From positions 1 through 11,449 of the forward strand of contig JADIIU010000223.1 of assembly GCA_027603945.1 (NCBI GenBank): 11,449 nt of DNA, read 5' to 3'. The stretch is from Terramyces sp. JEL0728. Lineage: Eukaryota > Chytridiomycota > Chytridiomycetes > Rhizophydiales > Terramycetaceae. A program made the position numbers and the translations under genes. Below the pieces are notes generated by a model. It worked only from the letters and a program-made list of their open reading frames with translations. It made no database searches and had not been told where the DNA came from. Positions 1-11,350 of the stretch are shown here, piece by piece (positions within the stretch are counted from its first letter, which is position 1; each line of letters opens with the position of its first letter).

Positions 1-55
1 AAAGCACCTTTAATTCGCAATCCGCATTCACTAGTAGATTTCCAGGCTTCAAATC
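1..55 (-). repeat. Inverted near-identical tract, arm 1 (pairs with 1273..1327)
   Basis: These 55 bases, including the first 7 bases of an intron, differ from the reverse complement of 1273..1327 at one position. The adjoining 126 coding bases of the two paralogues differ at 25 positions. The arm runs to the window edge, so its full extent is unknown. Confidence 0.85.
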
Positions 56-511
56 CCTATGCAAGACGTTTGCGGAATGGATGTATTTCAAACCGCGACA
101 AATTTGATATATGAAATATTGATAGTGCGCATCACTTAATGGTTGCTCTGAACGAATGATTTGGTGCAAATCGGCTTCCATCAATTCCTGACTAATATAA
201 ATTTCATTAAAATTTATATTATCTGCAGTCTCCATATCTAAAATACTAGTGATATTTTCGTGTCCAGCGAAATGTCTCAACAATTTGATTTCACGCAGAG
301 CTCTTTTTGCAAGAATTGGCTTTTGGAATACGTTGTGTACCTTTTTAATCGCTACATCTGTTCCAGACTTCTTATCTCTGGCGGCACTGAGTTAGCAAGA
401 CAATTACGAGACGATTCCGTATGCCCCTTGTCCCAATTCACGTAGCAGGGTGTATCTGGCGTTTAGAAAGTCTGGATATACTAATTTTGGTTTTTCTGCT
501 GACGAGGACAT
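1..511 (-). CDS. SLT2: Slt2/Mpk1-type MAP kinase, copy A (3' part off the window)
   Basis: Serine/threonine MAP kinase of the cell-wall-integrity type; the N-terminal 161 residues are in the window. Exons are 511..408 and 386..8, with a 21-nt intron at 387..407. The sequence at 7..1 (gtgcttt on the minus strand) is the start of a further intron, at the position where copy B also has one. Visible elements are the Gly-rich loop GQGAYGIV (about residues 27-34), the VAIKK lysine (K49), the helix-C glutamate in LREIKLL, and HRDLKPGN with catalytic D146. The activation loop and TEY lie beyond the edge. The start is the ATG at 511..509, which gives a short MSSSAEKP leader before [12 protein letters not shown], as expected for Slt2 proteins. 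The gene is head-to-head with copy B. Assignment to the Slt2 group rests on family resemblance and on copy B, which is complete. There is no sign of decay in the visible part. Confidence 0.92.
387..407 (-). other. 21-nt intron in MAPK copy A
   Basis: It begins GTAATT and ends CTAACTCAG. It sits after GIV and splits the next serine codon (phase 2), the same place as the 20-nt intron 902..921 of copy B. It is the only intron in the window whose length is a multiple of three, and retention would read an in-frame TAA at once. Confidence 0.9.
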
Positions 512-809
512 GGTTTAGAAGAAATTTCTCAACTAGTTTTTGAAGGCAAACGAGAAGTGGCGTGTTCATTGATGTACAATGGGATGGGTGATTTGGTCTA
601 TCCAGCGAATGCGATTTGAAGGAATGGGCCGCATCTGAATGCGCAACTGTATTTGACAGAGCCAATCGCCCTTTTGCTCGTGAGGAAGGTACTCTCATTA
701 GACCTTGCGTTTTCATAATTACAAAACGATATAGTGATTGCCTTTGTCGAGCAAAGCGAATTCCCAAGCTCAAGATACAAGCGTTTTTTCTCGAAAAACA
801 ATCGCGAAA
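512..809. promoter_or_regulatory. Bidirectional intergenic region between the two MAPK genes
   Basis: 298 bp with no supported gene; the open frames here lack ATG starts or family resemblance. It must hold both divergent promoters. Near each start lies a two-unit heat-shock-like half site: GAAatTTC at 521..528 by copy A and TTCtcGAA at 788..795 by copy B. TCGCGA lies at 802..807, two bases before the copy B ATG. No tRNA-like or repeat structure was seen. Confidence 0.6.
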
Positions 810-2090
<1,281 letters not shown>

Positions 2091-2092
<2 letters not shown>

Positions 2093-2096
2093 TAAA
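2091..2096 (+). terminator. AATAAA poly(A)-signal-like hexamer overlapping the MAPK B stop
   Basis: AATAAA overlaps the TAA stop at 2090..2092. Only 70 bp separate this stop from the ARMC2 stop on the other strand. Function as a poly(A) signal is inferred from the consensus. Confidence 0.5.
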
Positions 2097-2134
2097 TACT
2101 TGTGCATTACATGATTTTGAAATACCGCCTTAGC

Positions 2135-2140
2135 TTTATT
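2135..2140 (-). terminator. AATAAA poly(A)-signal-like hexamer for ARMC2
   Basis: Minus-strand AATAAA starting 23 nt after the ARMC2 stop, within the 70-bp convergent gap. The AATAAG that overlaps the stop itself is a weaker variant. Confidence 0.5.
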
Positions 2141-2162
2141 ATCTTTTACTACATATACGGTC

Positions 2163-4010
2163 TTATTCTACTATGGTTTCGTTTAATTTATCGCAGATTT
2201 TCAGAATGTTTTCTGGGATTTCAGACAAACCACCGACGATTTCCCGTACATCAATCGTAACGTTAGAATGGCACTTTAATTTGTACAGTCCCTCCACCGA
2301 TAGCCTTGCCAATTTCCAATTTGATTCACAAGTAGCATATTCGAAAACATCGATGAATTTTTCTGAACCTGCAAGCGAGTTTACCAAATCTGCATATTTA
2401 GTGGACAATAAATTGACTAGCACTCCGCATGAATAGTACAGGACATGCACATCCGTGTGATCCAACAACAGAATCAAAATCTGCACCAGATGATTCATTA
2501 TTGAGTTTGGAATATTGACATTATACCTGAAAATATTGGCGATAATTTTGCAAGTTTCCACAATAAATTCCAAATTTCCATTCATCAAGAACGGCAGCAG
2601 CTTGCCAAAAGTTTCAATGGTATGTGAAAACAGCCGGCGGTTTGGTTTAAAGTAGAAGCTTATGTTGGAAATGAATCCAATATAATTCAGTAATAGTTCT
2701 TCTTTTTGGAAGAATATTGGATTGTCGATGTTGTCCATAAAGAATTCTAGCTCGCTCATTCCTACCATGAGTTTGCCGGCATTTTGGTCCAACGATACAT
2801 TAGATAGGAGCCTGGTCATTTTTAGCACTAGATCAGAATCTGTTTCATCAAATAGGCTTGCTTCTGTGATTGATCCAAATAGGGCTACTACATCTTCAAG
2901 CACTTTGAGTATTTGCTCATGTATCTCGCCAACATTCGAAGCCAGGTTGGACAAAAAGTAGCACACTCTAGTTTGGATTTCCTTGTTATCCTATTGTTAA
3001 ATTATATTACCGATGAATATATAAGGCAATTTAGCGACTCTTGAATAATTTCCTGTTTCGAGAGTGGTTCATTGTACTTTTCATTTTCAGACAGGTTGCA
3101 AAATATCTTTAAAATCAGCACCAGTATCTTTTCAGAGTCTTCAAATTTCTTTTTGACAAAGGCATCGCATAGCAATCCCAATATTTCCGTTTCGCATTCT
3201 CCGTTGCTGGTTGCTTCCCTAAAACATCCAATTACTTGTGCAATGAGTCTAATTGCTTGATTCCGCTCATCAATATTGTTGTTTTCCTCGTATTTCTATA
3301 TTAGCAGCAATTACTTTGATGAATTCCTTGTACAGATCCAACATTTGGTCAATATTATATTCACCAATAGAACGAACGATGCTGATTGCATTAATAAGCA
3401 GTTCGCAACGTGCCCCCATTATATTACTGCAGTTCTTCAAGTTTAATCCAATAAACGTATTAATGCTGCTGCAAGCTTGCTGATCAGTTTGCTCCAAATT
3501 ATCTGAAAACCACAAGAAGCATTTTGATATAGCCTGGGATTCTCTGGTCAAATACAGCAATAATGTGTATGGTGTTGCGTTTAGTATCCCTCCATCTGCG
3601 AATATCAATAGTTGTTTGACTATGGATTTGCGGTACTGTTTATCTTTTTCGTTCCTTCTTAGCCAATGCAAATTAGCCAAGCACCGCAATAAAGTGTCTA
3701 CATCCTGGGTCTCTGGCAGTCTATTCACCAAATTCAACACCTCCGTGTATTCATTGTCCAGAGGTAGCTGCAATTGGGATTCAGCCATCGTTGGACGAGC
3801 TGTTTCAGTTAGCATATCACTGACCGGTTGGATTGGATTAGGGACTTTTTTGAATATGTTGCGTTTAAAGTGTGGAGTGAACGGACGTGTTGGTGCAAGC
3901 AAAGAAGCCTTTTGTAGGGATTTTTTCGCTTCGGATATTACCTGTGCTGCTGTTGGTCTTGATAAATCCAATTCATAGAAGGGCTTTGATTTAGCTTTTG
4001 TTTCCATCAT
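2163..4010 (-). CDS. ARMC2: ARMC2-like armadillo-repeat protein (radial-spoke transport adapter)
   Basis: 602 residues. Exons are 4010..3315, 3295..3011 and 2990..2163, with introns of 19 nt (3296..3314) and 20 nt (2991..3010), both phase 0. The N-terminus carries the ARMC2 signature: KPFYELDLSRPTAAQVISEA (about 9-28), followed by LAPTRPFTP (38-46), matching the PFY...IINEAR...RPFTP block of animal ARMC2. The rest is helical armadillo/HEAT-like repeats, for example TRVCYFLSNLAS, LTRLLSNVSLDQNAG-type and VLYYSCGVLVNLL segments, in the order seen in ARMC2. Known role: ARMC2 carries radial spokes on intraflagellar transport and is needed for motile axonemes. It is shorter than the animal protein (roughly 870 residues), mainly for lack of the long disordered N-terminal stretch. 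The start chosen is the ATG at 4010; the upstream open frame (to 4172) has no ATG and no resemblance. The gene is divergent from STI1. Confidence 0.9.
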
Positions 4011-4040
4011 CGAGACGCGTAAAGTTTTCAGCAGTCCAAG

Positions 4041-4052
4041 ATTACCCGTTAC
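4041..4052 (-). promoter_or_regulatory. X-box-like inverted repeat upstream of ARMC2
   Basis: On the ARMC2 strand this reads GTAACG-GGTAAT. It matches the two RFX half-sites GTNRCC and RGYAAC at five of six positions each, with no spacer (1-3 bases is more usual). It starts about 30 bp before the ATG. RFX control of ciliary genes is well known in animals; its use here is speculative. Confidence 0.2.
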
Positions 4053-4254
4053 GAGCTTAAAACTGAGTCGAAGGCTACTCTTGACATTACTAGCAACCCC
4101 AGTTTCGACCTTAAAGCCATTCTTTAGACCAGGTTGGACATCAAGCAAGCAGCCAGTTGAAAACTGTCTCAAGAAGTATAATGATTCTCCTTCCGCTGTA
4201 TCATTACTAAAGCAGTATCCTGGTATCTCTTGAGAGAGCTTTGCTGGTTTCTCC

Positions 4255-4267
4255 TTCGAGAAAATTC
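4255..4267. promoter_or_regulatory. Heat-shock element upstream of STI1
   Basis: TTC-ga-GAA-aa-TTC is three perfectly alternating units with 2-base gaps, ending 40 bp before the STI1 ATG. STI1 is a classic Hsf1 target, so motif and gene agree. The element sits in the promoter shared with ARMC2 and could act on both. Confidence 0.65.
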
Positions 4268-4307
4268 CACACCATTTTTTCTGCAGCTGATCAAAAACTT
4301 GACAAAA

Positions 4308-6092
4308 ATGACTGTGGGTGAATTTTTGACATTAGGCTGAAGAATATAAAGCTCAAGGAAACAAGGCATTCTCTACTGGCGACTACGACTCTGCGATTTC
4401 ATTCTTTTCGAAAGCGATCGAGTTGGATCCAAGCAACCATGTTTTATATTCTAATCGGTAAATACCACTGACTATAGTTCCGCTGCGTACTCTTCTCTAA
4501 AAGACTATGATAGTGCAGCAAAAGATGGAGACAAGACTGTAACACTCAAACCAGACTGGGCAAAGGTAATTTCTGGTTTGATCTAAGGGCTACTCCCGAA
4601 AAGGTGCTGCATTACATGGACTAGGACAATTACCAGAGGCAGCTGAAGTTTACAAAGCTGGTTTGAAAATCGAACCTGAAAATGCACAGTTGAAAAAAGC
4701 TTTGGGAGATGTCGAACGTGCAATCGAATCGGATGCATTAGGTGGAATTGGAAATATTTTCAATGCAGATATGTGGCAAAAGATTGCGTCGAACCCAAGA
4801 CTATCCCATTATTTGGCTCAACCAGATATTGTAGCGAAATTGCAAGAATGCCAACAAGACCCAAAGGCAATGTCGAAACACATGAATGACCAGAGAATGA
4901 TGCAAATTATGCTCGGATTAATGGGTCTTGATGGTGCCATGGCTACAAATGATGAAGAATTGGATACGGCAAAGGCAGAAGCACAAGAAAACTTGGATCG
5001 TCGTGCAGAAGAAAAGAAAAGGGCTGCAGCACAACCAGCACCAGCACCAGAACCAGAACCAGTTGAAGAGCCAAAGGAAAAAACTGCTCGCGAGTCAAGT
5101 GATGAGGAAAAAGCCCTCGGAAACACCTTTTACAAGAAGCGCGAATTCGATCAAGCCTTGGAACACTATGACGCAGCATGGGAATTGGATAACACTAATG
5201 TCGCAGTTCTCACCAACAAAGCCGCTGTGTTGTTTGAAATGGAGAGGTTCCAGGAATGCATTGAAGTATGCCAAAATGCTGTAGAAACTGGACGCGAACA
5301 CCGCACTGATTTCAAATTAATCGGAAGGGCACTTGGACGCATTGGAACTTCATATTTGAAATTGGACGACCTTGACAATGCCATCAAATACTTTGAAAAG
5401 TCTTTGGCTGAAAACCGCACAGCTGATATTCTCACCAAACTCCGCGAAACTGAAACTATAAAGAGAAACAGAGAAAAGCAAGCGTATATCAACCCAGAAT
5501 TGTCTGATCAAGAACGTGAAAAAGGAAATGCATTCTTCAAGAACAATCAATATCCAGAAGCAGTGAAATGCTATACTGAAGCCATTAAACGCAACCCAGA
5601 AGATCCACGCAACTATTCAAACAGAGCAGCTTGCTACACAAAGTTAATGGCGCTTCCTGAAGCAGAAAAGGATTGTGACGAAGCAATCAAGTTGGATGAA
5701 GGATTTATCAAAGCATATATCCGCAAAGCTGCCGTTCAATTTGCCAAGAAGGAATATGCTAAATGTATTTCCACCTCTCAATTGGCTCTTACAAGAGACA
5801 CTGATGGAAAACACACTGGAGAAATCAATGGACAAGTAACCAATTACTAAAATAGATCCAAAAAGCACACTTTGCTCAAAATGGGGGCAACGAGTCTGAG
5901 GAAGAAAAGCGTAAAAGAGCAATGAGTGATCCAGAAGTGCAAAAGGTTTTAGGAGACCCTGTCATGCAATCTATCTTGCAACAAATGCAACAAGATCCTA
6001 AAGCTGCCCAAGATCACTTGAAGAATCCTGTCATTGCTCAAAAGATTCAAACGTTGGTTAACGCTGGAATTATTTCTTTTGGTCGTCATTAA
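4308..6092 (+). CDS. STI1: STI1/HOP Hsp70-Hsp90 co-chaperone
   Basis: 566 residues. Exons are 4308..4313, 4336..4457, 4478..4565, 4588..5835 and 5856..6092, with introns of 22, 20, 22 and 20 nt. Domain order is that of HOP/STI1. TPR1 (about 1-110) has the full carboxylate clamp K7, N11, N42, K72 and R76, each one residue below human HOP numbering. DP1 (about 125-185) is followed by a Pro-Glu linker (about 220-237). TPR2A starts near 243, TPR2B near 374 ([13 protein letters not shown]), and DP2 is the C-terminus ([20 protein letters not shown] onward). The role is cytosolic hand-over of clients from Hsp70 to Hsp90. The clamp spacing confirms the two-codon first exon (M-T) and its 22-nt GTGGGT intron. 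The alternative 18-nt intron from the next GT gives a stop. Neighbours are flagellar genes on both sides. The stop is TAA with overlapping ATTAAA. Confidence 0.97.
4314..4335 (+). other. 22-nt first intron of STI1 after a two-codon exon
   Basis: Starts GTGGGT and ends TTGAC-ATTAG. The coding part of exon 1 is only ATG ACT. Joining it to GCTGAAGAA gives [11 protein letters not shown], matching the STI1 start in other species (MSLTADEYKQQGN in yeast). Confidence 0.85.
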
Positions 6093-6093
6093 A
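6088..6093 (+). terminator. ATTAAA poly(A)-signal variant overlapping the STI1 stop
   Basis: ATTAAA, the common variant of AATAAA, overlaps the TAA at 6090..6092. The gap to the DNAAF5 ATG is 124 bp. Confidence 0.35.
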
Positions 6094-6216
6094 CATTTTA
6101 ATTGAGTTTTTGAAGATGTTTCTCATGTGTCTGTTATCGCTCCATGAGTTTGTAGCTAATATCTGTTTAATAAGCGCGCTAATCACATGACTTTTAACTG
6201 AAAAATCTTTGCAAAA
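6093..6216 (+). promoter_or_regulatory. STI1-DNAAF5 intergenic spacer
   Basis: A 124-bp tandem spacer that must hold the STI1 3' end and the DNAAF5 promoter. The only distinctive element is the palindrome AGCGCGCT at 6173..6180, 36 bp before the DNAAF5 start. The start context is cAAAAATG. Confidence 0.45.
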
Positions 6217-8768
6217 ATGCTGGAAAGAGAGGTTAATATTATTTCAGAACCATCATCAGATAGAAACTCGAAACGCCAAGCTCTAAATTCAATATTAAAT
6301 TCTAAAACAATAAACTCTCCAATAGTCAAAGCAGTCGCAAAAACGATTTCAGATCCAATTGAAAAATGCAGAGAAATCTCCATTTCTATAGTTAACCAGG
6401 TTACAGACAAGGAGCTGTTGGGTAATCTGTATTAATCTAGTTGAAATTATCCCTGTATTTGTGTTGCAGATTCAAAAAGAACCTTCAGAAGAAATTAGGC
6501 TGCAAATAATGAAAACTTTGACGAAATTAACTAATGTATTTGGACGTGATATCTTTCCGTTTGTTGGGGATTATTTAGAAATCTTGTATTTCAGTTTGGT
6601 TGATGCGTTCCCGGAAATACGAAAGGAGAGTTTGAATCTGGGCAAAAAGCTGTGTTTAACCTGTCCGCAACAAGTTTCGCTGTGTGGGGATAAACTAGTC
6701 AAGCAGATCTTGCCCAGTTTGGCCCATCGTCACTCTAGTGTGCGCGTTATTGCTGTCAAAGCGCTGCTGGAAGCTGTGGTGATTGATTACTCTGCTTTAG
6801 ATGACTGTGTAACTGTTTTAATGGATCTTGTCAGGGATAAAGTACTATTTGTTAATACAGGCTTCGCAAGTACGACAAGAAGTTTACTTTTTGTCCAAAG
6901 AATGGCTGACTAGATTGATAGATAGACACATTTACAGACACAAGATTTTACCACTGCTTTACGCCGGCTACACGGATGAATTACCAAAATTGGTTGAATA
7001 TGCAAAGGGCATGATGGAGGAAGTTGGTGTCCACTTTGAAAAAGAAAATGAAAAGGAAATTAAGGATGAATTGGATTATAGTGATGGAATTGCTAGGCCA
7101 AGTAAGTATTCATTAACCAGACCGTCCAAGAGTGGGCTGCAGACGCGCAGCTAGAGATAACATTCAAAAAATTACAAAGAAGCTCACTGAAATGTTGGGT
7201 GATTGGAATGTGGAAACAAGATTTAAAGCGGCTCAAATACTCTACGTATTCATTGAGTTTTGTGAAACTGAAATTACTGGATACACTGCTACAATTATCC
7301 AACCATTGTACAAGATTTTGGCAGAAGATGAAGTACATTTAATGGATTTGTGTATTAAATTGATGAACAGACTGGGATATTTTGTCGCACCAGATACGAC
7401 TCTATCCCTGATACTCCCAGCATTGCTTGGCGGAAATGTTGGATCGTTTAGATTGGGCTGTCTCCGGGCACTGCAGGGAGTTTTGGCTGGTAATTATTAT
7501 TAATAGTAGGATCTAAAAAGGAGCTATTAGCACCCCAATTGAGCTACATTCTCGAATCACTTGGGGACAAAGATTTGGTTCAAAATGAAAACTTTGTTGT
7601 TTTGCTGGAGCTTTCTAAGTGTCTCGTTCAGTTAGTAGAAAAGCTACCAACAGATAGTGAAACCACTTTTAAATTCTTTTATCTATTGGTACAAATACAA
7701 AGTATTCCTGGCAATCCAAAAGTTGTTGGCTACACAGACGTAAAGAATACGGTAATTTATGTTGATATAGACCGAGCATACAATGACGACTTTTGCAGCC
7801 AGGCACTCTTTGAATTTGGCGGAAATGTACAATTCACAGTTGGCTACAGTAATTTCAACGTTCAATTATCAAAAGTGGACTCAGTACTCTGTGGAGCCTA
7901 ATATGCTTGAAATTATGTTGTTCAAGAGTGTTCCAAACTTTGCAGCCCATTTCGATATTATATTGCCAATATTAGTTAGTACATGTGACTTGGAAAAGGA
8001 GATTGAATTGAGAGATAAAATAATGCCAATAATTCACCATTTGTTCCAGCAACCATTCCCTTGCAGCCAATTAGAACCATTCTTGGGTGAATTATTGGAA
8101 AAAGTTGTTTTAAAAAACTGTGTTTGGAAAGGAGGTAGAAAACACGAATCGCTTCGAAGTCTATCTACAAAAGTTTGGAAACTAATCACAGAGATGTCTA
8201 TTGATCATGAAGTTTGGCTCCAAACCACCATCGCTCTTTTCGAGCCAGCAATCCTACCAATCCTGCTAACAAACCTTGACGACGATATTATTGAAACTAG
8301 ATCGAATGTACTCTCTATTCTTGACTGTTACTTGAAACTTCCGGTCTGGAAAAGTAAAACTTTTTAACTCTAGTCGAAAATATCAAAAAGATCTACCAGG
8401 AAACATTAAAACGCCTTGATGATGCCAGAGACGAAATTCGCATCAAAGGTGCGCTGTTATTTATTTCAATCTATCAAGCAATCGATAACTTTAAACAAGC
8501 AAATGCCCACCTGAAAAATGAAGATAAATTGACTGCAATAGTGGATAATGATGTAATTGAAATTGATCTTGATCAGGTTCATTACGAAACTATACTAGAC
8601 TGTATGTTGATCCACCTTGATGATACAAACATTAAAATCCAAGAAGCTGTACACAAATCGCTCGTGGGTTTAAAGCCATTTGTTGAACTCAAGACATGGA
8701 ACGATAAATTAATTGATGCCAAAGACAAGCACAAGTCTACTTTTTATCTTGAAAAGTTGCTTGAATAA
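6217..8768 (+). CDS. DNAAF5: DNAAF5/HEATR2 axonemal dynein assembly factor
   Basis: 811 residues of HEAT-repeat protein. Exons are 6217..6421, 6441..6841, 6861..7101, 7121..7489, 7510..7751, 7771..8353 and 8374..8768, with introns of 19, 19, 19, 20, 19 and 20 nt. The identity rests on blocks shared with animal DNAAF5. One is EKENEKEIKDELDY near 261-275 (KENEEDLKDKLDF in human), then RPRVGCRRAARDNIQKI with the GCR block. Near the end are LKRLDDARDEIRI and the C-terminal LIHLDDTNIKIQEAV...LLE. Length is close to the human protein (about 855). Known role: cytoplasmic preassembly of inner and outer dynein arms with Hsp90-linked factors. It follows STI1 in tandem at 124 bp. The gene otherwise looks like six or seven unrelated fragments because introns shift the frame. 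Stop is TAA with overlapping AATAAA. Confidence 0.92.
7490..7509 (+). other. DNAAF5 intron with tandem TAGTAG acceptor
   Basis: The intron ends attaatagtag, so AG occurs at 7506 and at 7509. Both keep frame: the 20-nt form codes G-S-K-K and the 17-nt form V-G-S-K-K. The 20-nt form fits the spacing of the branch motif in the other introns and is taken here. Confidence 0.75.
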
Positions 8769-8777: not shown

Positions 8778-8783
8778 TTTATT
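8778..8783 (-). terminator. AATAAA overlapping the 7TM gene stop
   Basis: Minus-strand AATAAA overlaps the TAA at 8781..8779. The mirror arrangement with DNAAF5 implies overlapping antisense 3' UTRs. Confidence 0.5.
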
Positions 8784-10197
8784 TCTTGTTTTTGATTGTT
8801 TTTGAAGGGGGTCTTTGTGGTTTTTTGTCTCTAATCTCCACCATCATCTTTACCAGCATGCTGTATATCACTACCACGAATAATGAATTTAATGCTTGTA
8901 AGCAATAAAAGATTCCGTTCATTGCCGAGTTTGCTCTATCACTACCAAGTATAATTGTGTAATTCACAACAATATTCAAGATTTCAAAAGCCAAAACAGT
9001 ACAAATCTGCATCACCAACAATAACCCCATTAGATAAATACTGGTCTTTTGTGAATACACTTTTTTCTGGCTGAAGTTGGTAAATACTTTGAATAGAATT
9101 ACAATTGACGGTGACATTTCAACTACAATGTAGATTGTTTTCCAAACAAACACTGTTTTTGATTGCAGTTTTACTAGTTTGAAATACACTTGATCTTGGC
9201 TTGCAAACAGTCCGTATATATCCGCTAATAGGAACCAGTACATTGTAAATATGTGCAGCAGAGTTAAAGTTGCATAAACCGCTTTTTCAACCACGGATTG
9301 ATGATATTGGCCATAAATTGTAAATAATATATACAGACTGATATAAACTGTGAATAAAGAGTAGACATTTGTCAGTTGATTGATAATATCAAATAAGTAG
9401 AATGAGATGTCGCTAAGAAAAGCAGTCATGGTAACGGTAACTTGGAGAATAATGTTTGCCAACAACAAGAATTGTGCGATTGAAAAGAACAAGTCTTTGT
9501 GCTTGTTGAACCTGCAGTATCGATAAAAGTAAAACCCGCAAGTTGCTGCTGGTGTCAGTATGGCAACACCATAGCAAAACGCAGAGAATCGTTCAATTGG
9601 TATATTAAATAGTGGTACTGATTCCGCATGCGGCACTGCTGCTTCCCAAATATAATTTACTGATCCCGAAGCAATCTCTGTTCCTACTTTAATATTTCCA
9701 AATATCTGTGACTGCTGCACTTGCGTATTGGTAGTGCTTGACGTATTGCTATTGCCGGAGCATCCGGATTGATCAAACAATGTAATTGTGTTTGCTTTGG
9801 TATCACACTTGATGAATTCGTCAATGCATTGATTATTTCCGAGATAAAATGACTTGATATATCCTTCCAACGAATCACTATTATTTGTCGTTGATGTAAT
9901 TGTACAATAGCTATAGTTATTTGCTGCTGCGGGTCCGTAATAATTGTCTATTTGACTTATATGTTGGCGAGTTAATGACTGGTAATTGTATGTGAATTTC
10001 AAATCAACTGAAGAGATGCAGCACCCAACGGGGATGAGGCGATTTGCGCTTCCACATATTGGAATCGGTGAATCTATTTGCAATTTGACAAAAACCGGTG
10101 TAGGATTGGCTTCATTGAATATCACCATTGACGTTGGGGGTCCTGTACAATCATTCGAATTAAGCCATCCTGCTTGAAATACTATGCCGGTTGACAT
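8779..10197 (-). CDS. Seven-transmembrane receptor-like protein with Cys-containing ectodomain
   Basis: 472 residues with no intron. A region of about 200 residues precedes the membrane part and holds eight cysteines (17, 48, 59, 60, 98, 124, 131, 146) and three N-glycosylation sequons, as in an extracellular disulfide-bonded domain. Seven hydrophobic segments follow at about 204-226, 236-258, 270-295, 305-331, 349-371, 386-408 and 426-452, then a short basic tail (RDKKPQRPPSK). The layout is that of a GPCR-like receptor, but I recognise no named family; lineage-expanded 7TM proteins of this layout in chytrids are the nearest thing I can recall. The start is the first in-frame ATG. It gives no signal peptide, so an upstream coding exon with a signal sequence may have been missed; I could not find a convincing one. 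The TAA lies 10 bp from the DNAAF5 stop, convergent. Confidence 0.82.
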   Translation of the reverse strand: MSTGIVFQAGWLNSNDCTGPPTSMVIFNEANPTPVFVKLQIDSPIPICGSANRLIPVGCCISSVDLKFTYNYQSLTRQHISQIDNYYGPAAANNYSYCTITSTTNNSDSLEGYIKSFYLGNNQCIDEFIKCDTKANTITLFDQSGCSGNSNTSSTTNTQVQQSQIFGNIKVGTEIASGSVNYIWEAAVPHAESVPLFNIPIERFSAFCYGVAILTPAATCGFYFYRYCRFNKHKDLFFSIAQFLLLANIILQVTVTMTAFLSDISFYLFDIINQLTNVYSLFTVYISLYILFTIYGQYHQSVVEKAVYATLTLLHIFTMYWFLLADIYGLFASQDQVYFKLVKLQSKTVFVWKTIYIVVEMSPSIVILFKVFTNFSQKKVYSQKTSIYLMGLLLVMQICTVLAFEILNIVVNYTIILGSDRANSAMNGIFYCLQALNSLFVVVIYSMLVKMMVEIRDKKPQRPPSKTIKNKK

Positions 10198-10297: not shown

Positions 10298-11350
10298 TTA
10301 ACAATTCAACAGCTTTCGCAACTTTGAAATTTGAAGTTTCACGATACACTTGAAGAGAGCAACTAAGGATGGAACAACTACATCTTGGCTTTTGAAAATA
10401 GAGATTTGATATTCTAAATGCTCGGGTGTTGCATCAAAATAAATTTGGTCTGTTAGATTCAATCCAAGATTGTTTTCGTTTTTGAAATTATGTTCCATAA
10501 TTGTCATTCGATCCCATTCGGTTTGGTCGTGCAAGTCTTGTGGTTTGGCTTTAGGAATCAGCTGGTAATCTAGGTTATCAGCAGGGATATTCTTCAGCAA
10601 AGGGGTATTTGGCGTGGTATAAATTGGTGTGATCGGTTCTGTATCTTTGGCGGTATCTTTAGCGGTATCTTTGGTGTTATTAGCAGCGTAGTCTTTTAGA
10701 AATTGGTTTATATGGTCGCTTAACAGCCTTGCATCTGTATTAGGATCAATCTGGAATGCACTGGCTTTCGATCTTTCTTTTGGAGGAGCAACCTTTTCTT
10801 TTGCAGTGCTTTGAACGTGATTTTGATTGCCATTTGATTCAGGTGTCAGAGCAAATACTGTTGCAGCATCGTGCATAGACTCGAGTCGTTTCCTGTTTGT
10901 GTTTGTTGGATCGGACACAGCTGCTTCTGGCGTGGGTTGGGTAATGGATATCTTTGGATTGTTGGTATTAGCGCTGGACTCTTTACGCTGACAGCAATGC
11001 TCTGGCAGTCTCCCTTTTGGATCAATAAACGGTGGCACAGTGTCTGTATCCCTGTCCTTGTGCTTCCATTCGAGCTGCTTGCTCTTGTGTTTAATTTCCT
11101 CCTTGTCTCCAACAAATTCCAGATCTTTGTCCTTCTGTTTCTTTGCTAGCCGCTGATTCTCGCCAAGCGCAAGATGGTTCTCCAAATAAGCTATGTGTTC
11201 CTCTTGCTTGCAGATCTTTGATTCGAATTGAGCTCTTGTTTGCTCGACAAGTTCCTGCAGTTTCCGCATTTCCCATTCTTTGGTTTTCAACTTGCAGATC
11301 AGGTCTTCATACTCGATTTCCAGGTGTTCCAGTTTTGACTTTTTTTTCAT
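10298..11350 (-). CDS. Coiled-coil protein of unknown function
   Basis: 350 residues, no intron needed, no recognised family. Residues 1 to about 95 are highly charged and rich in Leu, Glu and Lys with heptad-like spacing (KLEHLEIEYEDLICKLKTKE onward), predicting a coiled coil. The middle is Ser/Thr/Asn/Pro-rich and likely disordered. It includes a triple KDTA-type repeat near residues 225-237 encoded by three 12-bp units. The C-terminus is more hydrophobic (VVVPSLVALFKCIVKLQISK). The start is the first in-frame ATG at 11350..11348. The open frame extends upstream to about 11425 without an ATG, so a 5' exon cannot be excluded. A scaffold or cytoskeletal role is possible but not supported by a named domain. 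Confidence 0.7.
   Translation of the reverse strand: MKKKSKLEHLEIEYEDLICKLKTKEWEMRKLQELVEQTRAQFESKICKQEEHIAYLENHLALGENQRLAKKQKDKDLEFVGDKEEIKHKSKQLEWKHKDRDTDTVPPFIDPKGRLPEHCCQRKESSANTNNPKISITQPTPEAAVSDPTNTNRKRLESMHDAATVFALTPESNGNQNHVQSTAKEKVAPPKERSKASAFQIDPNTDARLLSDHINQFLKDYAANNTKDTAKDTAKDTEPITPIYTTPNTPLLKNIPADNLDYQLIPKAKPQDLHDQTEWDRMTIMEHNFKNENNLGLNLTDQIYFDATPEHLEYQISIFKSQDVVVPSLVALFKCIVKLQISKLRKLLNC
10641..10676 (-). repeat. Three tandem 12-bp units in the coiled-coil gene
   Basis: The units gtatctttggcg, gtatctttagcg and gtatctttggtg differ at one base each from the first. In frame on the minus strand they encode repeated KDTA, so copy number can change without a frameshift. Confidence 0.85.

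Follow-up and report, generated by a model that had tools for sequence, protein, structure and literature searches.

We analysed a window of 11,449 nucleotides (nt) of fungal DNA in which five genes are predicted to be interrupted by introns of 19-22 nt. The source, whose genome the initial annotation had called fungus-like, is a true fungus, Terramyces sp. JEL0728 (Chytridiomycota, Rhizophydiales, Terramycetaceae; NCBI taxonomy), and the window is contig 223 of its assembly (15,016,339 bases, 231 contigs). Six-frame translation of the window, followed by a listing of GT-AG candidates, gave the following genes, among them two for mitogen-activated protein kinases (MAPK A and MAPK B).

1..511, minus strand: 5′ part of the MAPK A gene, which continues beyond the window edge; spliced frame uninterrupted up to the edge
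810..2092, plus strand: MAPK B gene; spliced product of 394 amino acids, best solved relative the MAP kinase MPS1
2163..4010, minus strand: ARMC2-like armadillo-repeat gene; spliced product of 602 amino acids, the name being that of the initial annotation and the matches falling only under the curated cut-off
4308..6092, plus strand: STI1 (Hsp90 cochaperone) gene; spliced product of 566 amino acids
6217..8768, plus strand: DNAAF5 / HEATR2 gene; spliced product of 811 amino acids

Inspection of the sequence confirmed all 18 complete introns predicted in these genes, at the sites and with the lengths originally proposed (seven of 19 nt, eight of 20, one of 21 and two of 22), and the accompanying claim that none is longer held for the window. 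Excision of the 18 segments produced uninterrupted protein sequences for MAPK B, the ARMC2-like gene, STI1 and DNAAF5, and for MAPK A as far as the edge. Each of the 18 has GT-AG ends and contains a branch-like YTRAH motif with 4-6 nt of intron after its A. Seventeen have lengths that are not a multiple of three and hence break the frame; the exception is the 21-nt intron of MAPK A, which contains in-frame stops. The introns are listed below with the evidence for each.

387..407, minus strand: MAPK A intron, 21 nt, branch CTAAC; position and phase (2) the same as in MAPK B intron 1; stops on read-through
1..7, minus strand: beginning of another MAPK A intron (GTGCTTT..., after ELK), cut by the edge; by our reading in the same position as MAPK B intron 3
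902..921, plus strand: MAPK B intron 1, 20 nt; frame, motif, junction within the gapless alignment to MPS1 (8h59)
1108..1127, plus strand: MAPK B intron 2, 20 nt; frame, motif, MPS1 alignment
1321..1339, plus strand: MAPK B intron 3, 19 nt; frame, motif, MPS1 alignment
1548..1567, plus strand: MAPK B intron 4, 20 nt; frame, motif, MPS1 alignment
1921..1939, plus strand: MAPK B intron 5, 19 nt; frame, motif, MPS1 alignment
3296..3314, minus strand: ARMC2-like intron 1, 19 nt; frame, motif, gene finder
2991..3010, minus strand: ARMC2-like intron 2, 20 nt; frame, motif, gene finder
4314..4335, plus strand: STI1 intron 1, 22 nt; frame, motif, deposited protein, STI1 alignment
4458..4477, plus strand: STI1 intron 2, 20 nt; frame, motif, deposited protein, STI1 alignment
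4566..4587, plus strand: STI1 intron 3, 22 nt; frame, motif, deposited protein, STI1 alignment
5836..5855, plus strand: STI1 intron 4, 20 nt; frame, motif, deposited protein, STI1 alignment
6422..6440, plus strand: DNAAF5 intron 1, 19 nt; frame, motif, deposited protein, DNAAF5 alignment
6842..6860, plus strand: DNAAF5 intron 2, 19 nt; frame, motif, deposited protein, DNAAF5 alignment
7102..7120, plus strand: DNAAF5 intron 3, 19 nt; frame, motif, deposited protein, DNAAF5 alignment
7490..7509, plus strand: DNAAF5 intron 4, 20 nt; frame, motif, deposited protein, DNAAF5 alignment
7752..7770, plus strand: DNAAF5 intron 5, 19 nt; frame, motif, deposited protein, DNAAF5 alignment
8354..8373, plus strand: DNAAF5 intron 6, 20 nt; frame, motif, deposited protein, DNAAF5 alignment

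The truncated intron of MAPK A is the 19th in the window. MAPK A and MAPK B have one intron position and phase in common, and by our reading MAPK A is without a counterpart of MAPK B intron 2.

Deposited Terramyces sp. JEL0728 records for STI1 and DNAAF5 match the spliced products from end to end at 100% identity; these records already imply the introns, and no discussion of them was found among the literature matches listed. Spliced MAPK B aligned to its best solved relative, MPS1 (8h59), without a gap across query residues 13-350 (338 residues), with all five junctions inside. The four junction regions of STI1 were ungapped in 53, 55, 58 and 60 of 60 aligned sequences, which were taken from 120 listed and included the Terramyces record itself. 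In an alignment of 10 of 25 listed DNAAF5 proteins, the junctions traversed conserved sequence, save for gaps in Boothiomyces and, close to sites 1, 3, 4 and 6, minor indels in some of the relatives.

The boundary of DNAAF5 intron 4 is ambiguous, since an acceptor at 7506 (17 nt) also preserves the frame; the deposited protein agrees with 7509. The tandem acceptor here, TAGTAG at 7504-7509, could yield two protein forms one residue apart. A candidate intron at 1955-1974 in MAPK B fitted the motif but was rejected because its excision destroys the frame. Also rejected was an alternative genetic code with TAA/TAG as sense, as standard stops terminate the genes and, by our reading, the stops within kinase matches fit introns that were read through.

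Intron density in the window genes was ~2.4 per kb of coding sequence. For two chytrids the available portion of PMC8476143 gives 3.9 introns per kb; the density in Terramyces is below this, yet far from intron loss.

The remainder of the window holds open frames on the minus strand. At ~8782-10197 lies one frame of ~470 codons, with hydrophobic stretches that in our judgement resemble a seven-transmembrane receptor, and it matched no Pfam family at an expectation value (E) of 0.01. Another single frame, at ~10298-11350, appears coiled-coil-like by eye and gave a weak ADIP match under the cut-off.

Intron lengths in the wider genome

The genome was sampled as bases 20,001-30,000 of contigs 1-20, ~200 kb of 15.0 Mb, together with the kinase family genome-wide. 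Spacings were counted from GTA through the last base of YTRAYNYAG, a motif picked from the window introns, with both strands pooled and the window excluded. In the 20 loci, spacings of 19, 20 and 21 nt were represented by 51, 28 and 5 pairs, respectively, over a background of 2.23 +/- 1.5 per length from 30 to 600 nt (maximum 8), and no second peak appeared up to 600 nt. With one extra base between the branch and YAG, spacings of 20, 21, 22 and 23 nt yielded 29, 20, 10 and 7 pairs, respectively (background 2.26, maximum 10). The peak was absent from the reversed sequence. The presence of the same spacing peak in 20 other 10-kb loci, pooled, indicates that the window introns did not arise by chance.

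Because the spacing motif had been picked from the window introns, a gene finder was run without learnt signals, using GT and AG only under a length prior that was flat from 14 to 300 nt, with the window included. Here 78 of 181 introns were 19-22 nt long and the remainder were scattered at about one per length. In a learnt-signal run, donor and acceptor profiles were trained over six rounds under a flat prior of 14-400 nt, with the window in the training set. This produced 322 introns, 193 of them at 19-22 nt and 200 at 17-25 nt, with 3 below 17 nt and 119 above 25 nt. Six decoy profiles returned 16-39 introns at 19-22 nt and 140-179 above 25 nt, suggesting that the long calls are no more than noise. 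Of the 18 introns in the window, the finder recovered 17, and it reported no other of 17-25 nt there; in the 20 other loci it predicted 176 introns of 19-22 nt, with 3-17 in each locus.

The kinase family, searched genome-wide, gave evidence independent of the spacing counts and the gene finder: 22 adjacent same-strand match pairs lay within 450 bases of each other in profile order. Ten of these breaks change the frame, and all ten have estimated inserts within 19-23 nt (one of 19 nt, six of 20, one of 22 and two of 23), the estimates hinging on where the profile matches end. The exon pairs are on nine contigs, and two of the ten breaks lie on contig C42 in apparent duplicate loci, leaving nine that are independent. 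The other 12 pairs preserve the frame, as expected of domain inserts.

Taken together, within the DNA sampled the tiny-intron pattern extends across the genome, with a peak at 19-22 nt and no other, consistent with nearly all introns lying within a few nt of one another at ~15-25 nt. The initial annotation had regarded genome-wide intron lengths clustering around 50 nt or higher as fatal to its proposal; across ~200 kb of DNA and the kinase family the only peak was the one at 19-22 nt. Its statement that no intron is longer carries over to the sample less firmly: long calls were in no excess over decoys, and some longer introns could be present beside the 19-22 nt class.

Kinase loci also occurred in pairs of equal or similar score, ~29-62 kb apart in one contig (C18, C42, C3, C26 and C44), and two loci of ~3 kb, L022 and L023 (contigs C199 and C111), look near-identical in the stretch examined. 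Both look like recent segmental duplications or assembly effects.

Splicing signals and machinery

A branch A was assigned in 197 of the 200 modelled introns of 17-25 nt. Of these 197, 182 had the A 13-15 nt downstream of the intron start and 179 had it 5-6 nt from the intron end, and the most frequent branches were TTAAT, CTAAT, TTAAC and CTAAC. With GT and AG imposed by the model, GTAATT was the most frequent donor and donor position +3 was A in 92% of the 200 introns; acceptors were TAG in 128 and CAG in 51. The gap after the branch is too short for a polypyrimidine tract.

A complete U2 RNA was found above the cut-off (140.2 bits) and carries GTAGTA, which together with the YTRAY-type branch provides the expected complementarity between branch and U2. 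U5 RNA was likewise above its cut-off (85.9 bits). Among the proteins, Prp8 is present (PROCN, 774 bits), and near the start of its gene the finder places introns of 20 and 19 nt; SF1 (SF1-HH, 66 bits) and U1-C (zinc finger, 52 bits) are also present. The presence of U2, U5, Prp8, SF1 and U1-C makes U2-type splicing the likely mechanism. RED is described in the available portion of PMC6692369 as a factor needed for splicing on human short introns. A RED_N search returned zero candidates and its controls also gave none, so the absence of RED is not demonstrated.

Interpretation and rival explanations

We put a probability of roughly 0.93 on the interpretation that the segments are ordinary spliceosomal introns of U2 type in the nuclear genome of a chytrid, shrunk genome-wide to a near-minimal, fixed geometry. 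The earlier proposal of spliceosomal miniaturisation in a fungus-like nuclear genome is supported by the genomic sequence. Each intron would consist of a GTA donor, 13-15 nt to the adenosine of a YTRAY branch and 5-6 nt to a YAG end, 19-22 nt in total, and would be excised from RNA in life. Its length may be fixed by the footprint of 5′ splice site pairing, the helix between U2 and the branch, and the shortest possible step from branch to AG, with only a short linker between the 5′ pairing and the branch helix. Introns already present would have been shortened where they stood and not lost en masse, a change that probably predates the divergence of Terramyces and Boothiomyces. A bolder proposal, which we consider doubtful, is that the spliceosome of Terramycetaceae has become a fixed-ruler machine: through loss of a capacity or of factors it could no longer process introns much in excess of ~25 nt, its U1 and/or U6 would be altered (divergent, or U6 split by tiny introns) enough to evade standard models, and it would define the intron by length, not sequence.

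Several observations weigh against the interpretation of genome-wide shrunken spliceosomal introns. The introns are known here from DNA and protein comparison, and the branch assignments come from a score confined to the 3′ end, applied to introns from an acceptor-trained model. The 119 of 322 predicted introns above 25 nt count against it, though not in excess over decoys, and under the strictest penalty 17 of 82 calls were still above 25 nt, as against 62 at 19-22 nt. In the SF1 gene (L025, reverse strand, ~1980-1995 along the reversed locus) one intron misfits: by our reading only a length of 15 nt preserves the frame with GT-AG ends, and 17 nt shifts it, which points to a still shorter intron or to an assembly error of 1-2 bases. 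The main loose end concerns U1 and U6. No U1 RNA was detected at E 0.001 or E 10 among the 41 of 233 first-look candidates that were scored. The U6 covariance model gave only two matches, both under the gathering score, with 48 of 1328 candidates scored, and in DNA that to us looks coding, and these were rejected; two U6 core patterns, allowing up to 2 mismatches, had no match. The missed U1 and U6 may reflect assembly gaps, divergence, the first-look limit of the search or interrupted genes.

The rival that survives best, though unlikely, is that the shrinkage is recent and confined to this strain, and not family-wide. The STI1 model of B. macroporosus reads MT-GYSRKGA, a jump from site 1 to site 3. 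In Boothiomyces DNAAF5, one model lacks residues 69-79 and 666-686 and the other lacks 69-110; in Terramyces, DNAAF5 introns 1 and 6 lie at residues 69 and 681, which is where these gaps fall. The Boothiomyces models are therefore broken at Terramyces sites (1 to 3 in STI1; 1 and 6, or 1, in DNAAF5), which speaks against a change confined to one strain. We take the gaps to be failures of gene models on tiny introns, and tiny introns are therefore probably shared within Terramycetaceae, as judged from Boothiomyces protein models. In favour of recent shrinkage, the same models are gap-free at DNAAF5 sites 2-5 and STI1 site 4, where they are uninformative on intron length. Other proteins in the Boothiomyces records (P0002, P0122 and P0123 are affected) may be damaged likewise, with exons beside tiny introns skipped.

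It is improbable that the window is unrepresentative and that tiny introns stand beside a substantial class of ordinary introns above 50 nt. The modelled introns above 25 nt are consistent with such a class, as are the 13 of 82 calls above 60 nt that survive the strictest penalty. However, the long calls are thinly spread, roughly one at each length, show no mode and are outnumbered by those from decoys; none of the ten frame-changing kinase breaks is long; and the spacing counts lack any such peak to 600 nt. Moreover, both long calls in the SF1 gene hold, by our reading, exon sequence beside intron-like segments of 15-20 nt.

Very improbable is the explanation that indels from assembly or sequencing, or else programmed frameshifting, account for the segments. 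The SF1 misfit does resemble, as we read it, an error of 1-2 bases, and the introns are known from DNA. Against this, GT-AG ends occur in 18 of 18 with the branch motif at a fixed place, excision restores conserved residues, and the 176 predicted introns in the 20 other loci come with a spacing peak that is independent of the window. Finally, non-spliceosomal excision, whether by ciliate-like DNA elimination or as unconventional introns of the euglenozoan kind, is the least probable of all, despite the undetected U1 and U6 RNAs, given the canonical GT-AG ends, the YTRAY branch sites and the presence of U2, U5, Prp8, SF1 and U1-C. Sequences eliminated in ciliates have TA-bounded ends, unlike the GT-AG ends here.

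If the introns are spliceosomal and were shrunk genome-wide, near-minimal and uniform introns would occupy the nucleus of a fungus that is still rich in introns. Intron shrinkage would then be uncoupled from intron loss, parasitism and genome collapse, with a further independent origin, and extreme shrinkage in an ordinary fungal nucleus suggests that it is not restricted to ciliates, reduced parasites and relic nuclei. Lengths of 19-22 nt are near the shortest that splicing machinery is known to process, and Terramyces, which belongs to the kingdom of the most thoroughly studied splicing models, could serve as a system for the physical lower limit of intron length. Gene predictors tuned to longer introns could fragment gene models in these fungi, and the Boothiomyces records apparently show such damage.

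Comparison with known systems

Values and features of published systems are given here as they stand in the available portions of the sources. Introns of Cryptococcus average 63 bp and are rated relatively short (PMC8476143); both fungi are intron-rich, and the introns of Cryptococcus are three times longer than those of Terramyces. The same survey holds that fungi fall short of the intron-length extremes seen elsewhere, its example being long introns. Among the matches listed in the open-licence literature, none described introns of ~20 nt in chytrids or any other fungi. Terramyces is probably the first fungal case of tiny uniform introns, the kind itself being already known.

A chlorarachniophyte nucleomorph is the relic nucleus of an endosymbiont and is smaller than 1 Mb. 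Nucleomorph introns of 18-21 nt (PMC10245619) resemble those of Terramyces in near-equal length and narrow range, whereas Terramyces introns belong to a fungal nucleus with a 15-Mb assembly. The heterotrich ciliate Stentor coeruleus is free-living and has introns of 15-16 nt; uniform tiny introns, a retained GUAGUA in U2 and a stringent GUA donor are common to both, and the introns of Terramyces are longer. The branch is a clear YTRAY motif in Terramyces and a region termed U-rich in Stentor. All five major small nuclear RNAs were found in Stentor (PMC9505925), unlike in Terramyces, where U1 and U6 went undetected and U4 was not sought. Paramecium and Nyctotherus have ultra-short introns genome-wide, as Terramyces does, but theirs are longer (~25 bp; PMC5014332) and belong to ciliates.

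The precedents cited by the initial annotation (chlorarachniophyte nucleomorphs, Stentor and Paramecium) do not include the mikrocytids, of which Mikrocytos mackini has 224 introns in total, of 16-17 nt (PMC10245619). These share with Terramyces a narrow length, conserved sequence and a place in a non-ciliate nuclear genome. In contrast, Mikrocytos is an obligate intracellular parasite with a reduced spliceosome, whereas Terramyces has 176 predicted introns of this kind in 200 kb.

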